64,000 nucleotides of DNA, taken from assembly GCF_036699995.1 (NCBI RefSeq), contig NZ_CP144906.1, positions 2,991,001 through 3,055,000 of the forward strand, given 5' to 3'. The notes under the pieces are model-generated. The model had not been told where the DNA came from and made no database searches. It was given only the letters and a program-made list of their open reading frames with translations. This stretch comes from Clostridium beijerinckii. GTDB lineage: Bacteria > Bacillota > Clostridia > Clostridiales > Clostridiaceae. Below are positions 32,741 to 35,288 of the stretch, in pieces. The position numbers and the translations under genes are program-made. How positions within the stretch are numbered: position 1 is the first letter of the stretch; each line of letters opens with the position of its first letter.

Positions 32741-34978
32741 TTACTTAAGTAATGGTGTTATATTTACTGAGTAGTATACGCGCAAAACATGAAGTGCTCT
32801 AGTGCAAGCAGTATAAAGTAAAAGTCTTTCCTCTTCACAACTATAATTTTCATCTCCTGCATTATATATAATCACCACATCAAATTCTAATCCTTTAGCA
32901 AGATAAGCAGGTATTACCAATATTCCACTCACATACTCATCGTCATCCTTCATTATCACTCTAACATTAGTCTTATCTTTTAAGAAATTATATACCTCAT
33001 TTGCTTCCTTGGCAGTTTTTGTTATGATTCCAATGGATTTATAATTTTTCTCATTATATATTTTTATATCTTCAAGAAGTCTTTCTTTTATAGCTTTTTC
33101 ATTTGAAAAACCAAGAAGCAAAGGTTCTTCTCCACTTCTTTCCACACATTGACCCTCAATCCCCTTATCAAGGAGCCTTCTTGAAAATTTAGTAATTTCC
33201 ATTGTTGATCTGTAACTTTTTGTTAAATTTATTATGCAGGTATTATCTTCAGCAAATATATGAGATATATTCTTATACTCTCCTACATTCATAAATGGGT
33301 TTATTGATTGATTCAAATCCCCAAGTATAGTCATGTTTGCATGGTTAAAAAGCTGATAAAATATTTCATATTGAAGTGGTGAATAGTCCTGGGCCTCGTC
33401 AATAATAACGTATTTGATTTCTGATGTTTTAGGAAGATCTCCCATAGCACCTTTTAGATACAGAAGAGCTATCTGATCCTCATAATTAAGCCTGTGGACT
33501 TTTATTTTTTCTAAGGTATAGCTTCTTATTTCACTAATTTTCTTCTCGTTGAACTCAATATTTGAATTTTTCAAGAAAAACTCAAGATTCTCAAATAACT
33601 TTTTATAAATGCCCATTAAATCAAATTTTGTCATTCTATTTATTTCATGATAAATCTCTTTCAGTTCATTCTTTACCATAGCTGTACTATGTTCTATGAT
33701 TTCAGCTTTATCTAAATAAGAACCTGAATCTTTAAGTTCACCAGCAACTTCTTCTATACGCTGTTCTTCATAAGGCTTTAAAAGAAATAAAATCCTCTCT
33801 CTTATCTTTTGAAGTCTTCTTTTTCGTGGAAGATTTGCATAGTCTTTGAAAAATAATTCATCTAAGTCCTGAGATGAAATTATTAAATCCCCTCTAAATT
33901 TAATATTCTTAAAGTTTGTATCTTCCTTTTCCATAAAGGTTACATACCTCTTTAGTATATCTATGAACTCCTTTGAAGATTTAAACTTAATATTATTGAT
34001 TCTTATTTGATAGTCGGATTCCTTCTTTGATGCTAAAATATATTCCATCATTTCGCTATAGTTTTCTTTGCTAAGTCCTCCACCTAAAGCCTTGTGCATA
34101 TATTCTTTAAATGTAGTCTGACACATATTATCTTCTCCGAGTTCAGGTAATACATCAGAAATATACTCATTAAAAATATCATTTGGCGAAAATATCACTA
34201 TATTTTTAGGCGTTATTTTATCCCTATGCTTATATAAAAGATAAGCAATTCTATGAAGAGCAACAGAAGTTTTTCCGCTTCCAGCTGGCCCTTGAACAAT
34301 CAGATTTTTATATTCTTCATTACGAATTACTTTATTCTGCTCTCTTTGTATAGTTGTTACAATGCCTTTCATCTTGGTGTCGGTACTTTTACTCAAGATA
34401 TCCTGTAATACTTCATCATCTATCTTAAGATTACTGTCAAACATATATTCAATTTCACCATTATTAATTTTATACTGTCTTTTAAGTGTAAGTTCACCCT
34501 CTACTATACCCTCAGGACATTTAAACTCTGCCTGTCCAATTTCATAATCATAAAACATACTTGAAATTGGCGCTCTCCAGTCATATATTAGAAAATCAAA
34601 GTTATCATTAATAAGATTAGATATTCCTATATAACACTTTTCTGCCCTTTCCTCCCCTTTTTCAATAAAATCCATTCTTGCAAAATATGGGGATAAAAGT
34701 ACTCTTTCGTATTTTTGCTCAAGCTTTCTTGTGAATTCATGAGTTCTTTTCTGTATTTTCATAGTATTAATAGACTGCATAAAGTCTACGATCTGTTCTA
34801 ATCCATTATTTACAGAAACTGATCCTACATTTTCCCATAACTCCCTTTGTACTTCAATTGCATCACTTTTAAATTTTTCCCTAAAGTTACGTTTTTCATC
34901 AAGTTGTTTTTGAGCTTCTTTAAGTACCTCTAGCAGCCATTCACGTTCAAGTTTCCATTCAAAGTCGTTATTTTTCAT
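32741..34978 (-). CDS. helD: RNA polymerase recycling motor HelD
   Basis: A 745-residue UvrD/Rep-like ATPase with HelD architecture: an N-terminal coiled-coil arm (about 1-100), the HelD landmark IYDWRAPISSMFYD at 131-144, Walker A GPAGSGKTS at 230-238, a large insert, Walker B VIIDEAQDYSPLQYE near 525-540 and a C-terminal helicase domain ending LLLYTACTRALHVL. HelD uses ATP to pull stalled RNA polymerase off DNA. AAGGAGCG precedes the ATG. Its promoter (35109-35137) faces an opposing promoter that would make a short antisense RNA. Confidence 0.87.
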   Translation of the reverse strand: MKNNDFEWKLEREWLLEVLKEAQKQLDEKRNFREKFKSDAIEVQRELWENVGSVSVNNGLEQIVDFMQSINTMKIQKRTHEFTRKLEQKYERVLLSPYFARMDFIEKGEERAEKCYIGISNLINDNFDFLIYDWRAPISSMFYDYEIGQAEFKCPEGIVEGELTLKRQYKINNGEIEYMFDSNLKIDDEVLQDILSKSTDTKMKGIVTTIQREQNKVIRNEEYKNLIVQGPAGSGKTSVALHRIAYLLYKHRDKITPKNIVIFSPNDIFNEYISDVLPELGEDNMCQTTFKEYMHKALGGGLSKENYSEMMEYILASKKESDYQIRINNIKFKSSKEFIDILKRYVTFMEKEDTNFKNIKFRGDLIISSQDLDELFFKDYANLPRKRRLQKIRERILFLLKPYEEQRIEEVAGELKDSGSYLDKAEIIEHSTAMVKNELKEIYHEINRMTKFDLMGIYKKLFENLEFFLKNSNIEFNEKKISEIRSYTLEKIKVHRLNYEDQIALLYLKGAMGDLPKTSEIKYVIIDEAQDYSPLQYEIFYQLFNHANMTILGDLNQSINPFMNVGEYKNISHIFAEDNTCIINLTKSYRSTMEITKFSRRLLDKGIEGQCVERSGEEPLLLGFSNEKAIKERLLEDIKIYNEKNYKSIGIITKTAKEANEVYNFLKDKTNVRVIMKDDDEYVSGILVIPAYLAKGLEFDVVIIYNAGDENYSCEEERLLLYTACTRALHVLRVYYSVNITPLLK

Positions 34979-35031
34979 AATATTTCGCTCCTTATGATAA
35001 AATAATTTTATAGAATTAATTCAAAACTCTA

Positions 35032-35060
35032 TTGACATTGCTTTTTCGAAAGTGTATAAT
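35032..35060 (+). promoter_or_regulatory. Consensus sigma-A promoter for an antisense RNA
   Basis: TTGACA (35032-35037), 17-bp spacer, TATAAT (35055-35060): a perfect consensus on the plus strand, with no rightward gene within reach. Transcription should start near 35067. Confidence 0.8.
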
Positions 35061-35066
35061 ATAATT

Positions 35067-35178
35067 AGAGATTTATAAATAACATTATTCAAAAGCGATA
35101 TCTAACTTATTGTATCGTTTTTATTTTGTTGTGTCAATAGTAAAGACATTTGTCATTAGACAAATGTCTTTTGTTTTT
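35067..35178 (+). ncRNA. Predicted short RNA, antisense to the helD 5' leader
   Basis: Bounded by the consensus promoter at 35032-35060 and the terminator at 35142-35179, the RNA would be about 110 nt. It would contain one internal hairpin (35091-35100 with 35113-35122) and the terminator hairpin. It holds no ORF with a ribosome site. Its first 35 nt are complementary to the start of the helD mRNA, and it runs through the helD promoter, so it may repress helD by interference or antisense pairing. Not recognised as any known RNA family. Confidence 0.6.
35109..35137 (-). promoter_or_regulatory. Near-consensus promoter of helD
   Basis: On the minus strand TTGACA (35137-35132), 17-bp spacer, TACAAT (35114-35109). 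The start would be near 35102, giving helD a leader of about 120 nt. Confidence 0.75.
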
Positions 35179-35179
35179 T
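35142..35179 (+). terminator. Terminator of the antisense RNA
   Basis: Perfect 13-bp arms AAAGACATTTGTC (35142-35154) and GACAAATGTCTTT (35159-35171), 4-nt loop, then TGTTTTTTC on the plus strand. The minus strand has no T-run, so it acts rightward. Confidence 0.8.
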
Positions 35180-35288
35180 CTTTATGAATTTATATTTGAG
35201 TGAATTCTGCGGACTGTTTACTTCTTGAACGCATAACCTTTGAAAGTATCAGAAATACATAGTCTGCACGGCACTCTAATTTTCTCCA

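Follow-up and report, generated by a model that had tools for sequence, protein, structure and literature searches.

Two promoters that face each other, followed by an intrinsic terminator, lie in front of helD in a stretch of the Clostridium beijerinckii genome (64,000 nucleotides of contig NZ_CP144906.1, positions 2,991,001 to 3,055,000; here called the window), raising the question of whether this layout controls helD and, if so, how. The initial annotation of the locus had proposed a built-in interference switch or antisense control of a gene encoding an RNA polymerase recycling factor. We compared the locus with its relatives in other genomes and with the published control of helD in Bacillus subtilis.

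Facing promoters and a terminator in front of helD

The locus comprises the following features, in window coordinates:

35032-35060, plus strand: antisense promoter Panti, TTGACA-17-TATAAT, 12 of 12 matches, predicted start near A35067; conserved
35137-35109, minus strand: helD promoter PhelD, TTGACA-17-TACAAT, 11 of 12 matches, predicted start near G35102; conserved
35067-35179, plus strand: predicted antisense RNA of about 113 nt, deduced from promoter and terminator
35142-35171, plus strand: intrinsic terminator stem of 13 pairs (4 G-C) with a loop of 4 and a T-rich tail to 35179
35091-35122, plus strand: inner hairpin of the predicted antisense RNA, overlapping the PhelD -10 box; not generally conserved
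34988-34993, minus strand: helD ribosome-binding site AAGGAG, read from the sequence
32741-34978, minus strand: helD, class I HelD, 745 aa
35289-40069, minus strand: a run of four response-regulator/histidine-kinase genes, one with an HDOD domain, upstream of helD and on the same strand

Both promoters and the terminator, as initially annotated, agree with the sequence in letters and coordinates. The terminator stem, followed by TGTTTTTT on the plus strand, sits just past PhelD and would end the 113-nt antisense RNA. Counting both ends, the predicted starts lie 36 bp apart and the predicted antisense RNA overlaps the 5' end of the helD mRNA by about 36 nt, close to the earlier estimate of about 35 nt from starts near 35067 and 35102. 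As also annotated, there is no rightward gene, no open reading frame of at least 50 aa starting between 34978 and 35289. Across the 10 kb scanned, promoter-like sites (63 versus 64.5 expected) and terminator-like sites (2 versus 2.2 expected) occurred at chance level, and Panti and PhelD were the sole promoter-like matches at 11-12 of 12 positions. These analyses confirm that the facing promoters and the terminator in front of helD are real. An Rfam scan of the window gave no family at its gathering score, and a known RNA family was dropped on that account.

Conservation of the convergent pair and its terminator

Six peptide patterns yielded 54 helD loci from GTDB genomes, to which further loci from other relatives were added. 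Scoring covered 29 upstream regions: that of the window, plus those of 28 orthologues with identities from about 60% upwards. Not all of them are independent (L053-L055 are near copies). Kept outside this count were L050 and L061 (132 and 167 nt upstream; neither the convergent pair nor the second element described below was seen), L064 and L090 (incomplete helD), duplicates of the same contigs, more distant paralogues, L063 and L065 (carrying the first and the second element, respectively, both below 60% identity) and L014 (66% identity; neither element upstream).

A convergent pair with 44-56 bp between the -10 boxes was present within 300 nt upstream of helD in 14 of the 29 regions, and L039 is a fifteenth bearer, with an intact pair displaced to 318 nt by an insertion and accompanied by a terminator-like hairpin. 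In a control confined to the 300-nt scan, such a pair arose in 52 of 8700 dinucleotide shuffles (0.6%) and in none of 104 control tiles. For the window upstream region alone, any convergent pair at looser hexamer scores was found in 30 of 5000 dinucleotide shuffles, and the whole 64-kb window holds two other convergent pairs, both weaker (10+9 and 9+9 matches). Because 15 of the 29 helD regions carry the pair, as opposed to 52 of 8700 shuffles, the convergent layout before helD is selected and not due to chance. The comparison of helD upstream regions in relatives, which the initial annotation had proposed as a check, thus found both promoters conserved, not neither.

Pair-bearing hosts include C. 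beijerinckii, C. chromiireducens, C. tetanomorphum, C. pascui and C. luticellarii, as well as Anaerosolibacter, Lutispora and Fusibacter. The start-to-start distance is 35-40 bp in all 17 pair-bearing regions (the pattern allowed 28-48). The aligned pair-bearing regions show no variation in either TTGACA hexamer or at most -10 positions; these regions were chosen for the pair, so that this invariance partly reflects selection of the sample. Conservation extends a few bases past the hexamers. Seven of 17 plasmid helD records were also examined, six of them from Bacillus, Priestia, Niallia and Paenibacillus. Among these six Bacilli regions, a weak pair was found in one (P. cellulositrophicus, score 20) and the pair scan found none in the other five; the Paraclostridium plasmid region scored 23.0 and carries the second element in addition.

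A terminator-like hairpin on the antisense strand just behind PhelD was found in 11 of the 17 pair-bearing regions (equalled by no more than 4% of 200 shuffles); the scan found no convincing antisense terminator in the other six, and in some regions, such as that of Fusibacter, the reading on the helD strand scores higher. Compensatory changes occur in 6 of the 13 terminator stem pairs, with one cell broken, in an alignment of 8 of the 17 regions that were chosen for a similar hairpin. The predicted 113-nt antisense RNA folds at -28.7 kcal/mol (z -5.35). The inner hairpin (35091-35122) was rejected as a generally conserved early terminator: 18 sequences gave no consensus fold, and single folding of 20 regions gave z of -2 or below in nine, the window included. 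Adjoining the terminator, at window positions 35170-35240, is a member of a repeat family (TTTTTTATTCTTTAGGAATTTATATT...) with five further copies in the same genome (L002-L006). These five relatives come after T-rich runs, several of which read as terminators (behind a tRNA array, a T-box leader and coding genes), a context that weakly supports a real rightward terminator at helD.

We also built a sequence-only model of the convergent pair (R1) from 14 sequences. In the C. beijerinckii genome, R1 found the helD site with E 8.6e-23; the next best match reached only E 0.02, and a second strong convergent pair in this genome was rejected on this basis. Within the genus, R1 matched 9 of 68 genomes, once each and always directly before helD; G069, G071, G018 and G078 were absent from training, and G060, G033, G014 and G007 repeat training sequences. 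Across the class, 7 of 393 genomes were matched: C. beijerinckii itself, four before helD (L165 and L167 repeating training sequences, L168 and L169 new), L166, with only about 130 nt of contig left beyond the match, and L170, a half-length match in front of a different gene. Two helD paralogues of the same genome (L091 and L092) carry no strong pair (18.5 and 18 versus 24 for the window), gave no match to R1 or to R2, the model of the second element, and were rejected as members.

The bare pattern TTGACA-N80-108-TGTCAA occurs 40 times on one strand genome-wide, versus 17 for a reversed control pattern. A 120-bp repeat that has TTGACAC in inverted orientation at its ends and is present at 26 places (for example C1:237783-237902) accounts for 26 of the 40. 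By eye, only two of the other 14 sites have -10 boxes on both sides, namely helD and a regulator region at C1:1282695-1282794 (L102), where facing promoters lie between divergent XRE-type regulators in what looks like a phage lysogeny switch.

Relation to the rifampicin alarm of Bacillus subtilis

A convergent dual-promoter alarm has been described for B. subtilis helD and pps (Sudzinova et al., published January 2026; PMC12802891). According to that text, PhelD is faced by a stronger Panti-helD, 39 bp separate the starts and the antisense RNA measures about 94 nt. Induction, attributed there to polymerase that rifampicin has arrested on the antisense promoter, is lost on a 17-bp shortening or when the two promoters trade places. 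Our comparison was with the text of the paper rather than with the B. subtilis helD sequence. As described there, and as in the window, a class I helD has two convergent promoters within 300 bp upstream; the window resembles the published case in start spacing (36 bp predicted versus 39 bp) and in an antisense RNA ended by an intrinsic terminator (113 nt predicted versus about 94 nt). The genome-wide rule given in the paper (16-20 bp from -35 to -10, promoters 45-100 bp apart) also accommodates the window, with spacers of 17 and 17 bp and 48 bp between the -10 boxes, which we take as the distance meant. The window differs from the published case in its antisense spacer (17 versus 19 bp) and in that both of its -35 boxes are perfect TTGACA. 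The B. subtilis search pattern reported in that text (antisense spacer of 18-19, all-AT -10 boxes) has no match in the window; this pattern is a search filter for one genome and not a mechanistic requirement.

We therefore suggest, with a probability of roughly 0.8, that the window holds a clostridial member of the convergent dual-promoter alarm controlling helD. The parts, their geometry and their conservation are direct observations; interference, the order of promoter strengths (Panti above PhelD) and the rifampicin signal would be as in B. subtilis. Polymerases starting from the consensus Panti would traverse PhelD and end at the terminator that immediately follows, and this traffic would keep PhelD low through interference. 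A rifampicin-like drug would arrest polymerase at Panti and stop the traffic, whereupon a polymerase could escape from PhelD, displace the arrested one and allow helD to be made. Speaking against this reading, 14 of the 29 orthologues lack the pair and L014, outside the 29, has neither element; moreover, PhelD may not be slow to escape, because it is near consensus. The 17-bp antisense spacer with the unmatched search pattern, the six pair-bearing regions without a convincing antisense terminator, the five Bacilli plasmid regions without a pair and the Asn residues at D56 and D57 of HelD (see below) weigh in the same direction.

The interference switch of the initial annotation was thus right in kind, backed by the conservation and by the B. 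subtilis work (PMC12802891), and its mechanism was already known. The other half of that proposal, control by the antisense RNA itself, is less supported, and so is the further idea that HelD senses its own need through polymerase collisions, given that in the published text it is polymerase stalled at the antisense promoter with rifampicin bound that acts as the signal. Were the antisense RNA to repress helD, whether in trans or by base-pairing to the initial 36 nt of the mRNA, promoter geometry would be secondary. Such repression would fit the structured fold of the predicted RNA and the covariation of its terminator, but the overlap between the two -10 boxes is poorly conserved and has no consensus fold, the features kept are the promoter boxes and their spacing, and the order and spacing of the promoters determine how B. 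subtilis responds, pointing to interference in cis (PMC12802891); we consider it quite unlikely. That PhelD is an ordinary promoter, or that readthrough from the kinase operon upstream expresses helD, with Panti serving only an unrelated small RNA, appears very unlikely: PhelD is indeed near consensus, the upstream genes share the direction of helD and the hairpin behind PhelD has a weak tail on the helD strand (TTACTATT; score 17.5 versus 20.5 on the antisense strand), yet Clostridium, Anaerosolibacter, Lutispora and Fusibacter all retain Panti and its distance from PhelD, and chance yields 0.6%. The terminator scan of the 10 kb called only the plus-strand reading of this hairpin. The inverted repeat CTATTGACA...TGTCAATAG might finally represent a pair of operators for a regulator instead of two -35 boxes, as the conservation running a few bases past the hexamers could suggest; this we find most unlikely of all, as -10 boxes at the proper spacing are also kept and R1 has no second strong site in the genome.

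Two other systems bear a partial likeness to the alarm. The actinobacterial rifamycin-associated element (RAE) at helR likewise places rifampicin-linked control before a HelD-family gene, but it is a 19-bp palindrome and putative protein-binding site, and the consulted text on it describes no convergent antisense promoter (PMC10719064, PMC8655204). Face-to-face lysogeny promoters of the phage 186 type, as presented in PMC12802891, are also convergent with interference but, unlike the helD alarm, form a lysis-lysogeny switch and not a drug sensor.

The encoded protein is assigned by sequence to class I HelD: its 745 aa score 720.7 bits against NF041464 (HelD_BACSU equivalog; cut-off 419) and align over nearly the full length to B. 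subtilis chain 6wvk_H (E 3.2e-155). A helD of equal length, 745 aa (cbe_2724), is given for the C. beijerinckii laboratory strain NCIMB 8052 in PMC8655204. The acidic tip residues D56, D57 and E60 are reported to be needed for protection by B. subtilis HelD. Rifampicin protection by the window HelD is less certain than its regulation, because both alignments place Asn opposite D56 and D57, and for E60 one (6wvk_H) shows Glu and the other a gap; the D56 column varies widely among clostridial HelDs.

A second element with an AGWCT centre

In the other 14 of the 29 helD regions the conserved element is of another kind: two extended -10 promoters placed back to back around AGWCT. Read in the helD sense it is CACTnTAATTATAnCATA, then about 16 nt, then AGACT, with an antisense extended -10 and a sense -10 set on either side of AGWCT; the antisense side reads TATGnTATAAT, the sense side often TGCTATAAT, and the AGWCT centre is fixed. 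On a HelD tree of 33 rows, made by a quick method and with some long branches, the two elements need six changes, at least three of them forced by starred branches, and the element labels, though mixed, cluster more than in most shuffles (as low in 6 and 3 of 500). Before helD, one element has thus taken the place of the other more than once, which fits an equivalent function. In the helD leader of Clostridium mobile (L041, 1300-1503), the AGWCT element is followed by a hairpin nearly identical to the window terminator, right before the ribosome-binding site; this leader may preserve a trace of a past exchange between the two types of control region.

A model of the AGWCT element (R2) was trained solely on 14 such helD regions. 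Its best match in the C. beijerinckii genome lies upstream of a gene for a rifamycin-inactivating phosphotransferase, rph (C1:3897950-3898016, E 2.1e-4; next 0.057), whose product scores 1303 bits against NF041857 over the 820 aa examined (cut-off 999), with PEP synthase models also above their cut-offs. The same genome thus has helD with the convergent pair and one rph gene with the AGWCT element. Within the genus, R2 gave 13 matches in 11 of 68 genomes, eight before rph (one broken), one before helD, one before the rifampin ADP-ribosyltransferase gene arr (NF033144, 216.6 bits, cut-off 130) and three elsewhere. Across the class, 16 of 393 genomes had one match each, preceding rph in eight cases (one common to the genus set), helD in two, arr in one, alpha/beta hydrolases in two and other genes in three. 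Combined, 20 of 28 distinct matches precede helD, rph or arr, or 18 of 26 without L153 and L171, helD matches that repeat training sequences.

The element was seen before rph/pps-like genes in C. beijerinckii (L115, L141) and at L154, L156-L159, L161, L163, L173-L177, L180 and L181, and before arr in two genomes (L155, arr at 1603-2049, and L178). In two further genomes it precedes related alpha/beta hydrolases (L179, 1614-2522; L183, 892-1452, minus strand), which resemble macrolide esterases, scoring below the cut-offs of those models, and which are candidate enzymes against an RNA polymerase inhibitor.

The head-on interference available to the convergent pair cannot operate in a back-to-back layout; promoter competition or a protein at AGWCT are candidate mechanisms. 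A search of the open PMC literature gave the Sudzinova paper for the convergent mechanism and no description of the AGWCT element. We give an even chance to the proposal that Clostridia possess two interchangeable polymerase-inhibitor alarms, the convergent pair and the AGWCT element, the latter perhaps marking a clostridial regulon directed against RNA polymerase inhibitors.

The convergent pair would carry the rifampicin alarm known from B. subtilis over to Clostridia. The evolutionary evidence indicates selection on promoter spacing and on the antisense terminator, and the case illustrates that a strict pattern search can miss members of the alarm. The convergent mechanism itself is already published. 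The larger lead, outside the window, is the AGWCT element, a single upstream sequence that links helD, rph and arr, three unrelated routes to rifamycin resistance, and so makes a clostridial rifamycin regulon directly testable; if such a regulon exists, the element may also point to new inactivating enzymes.
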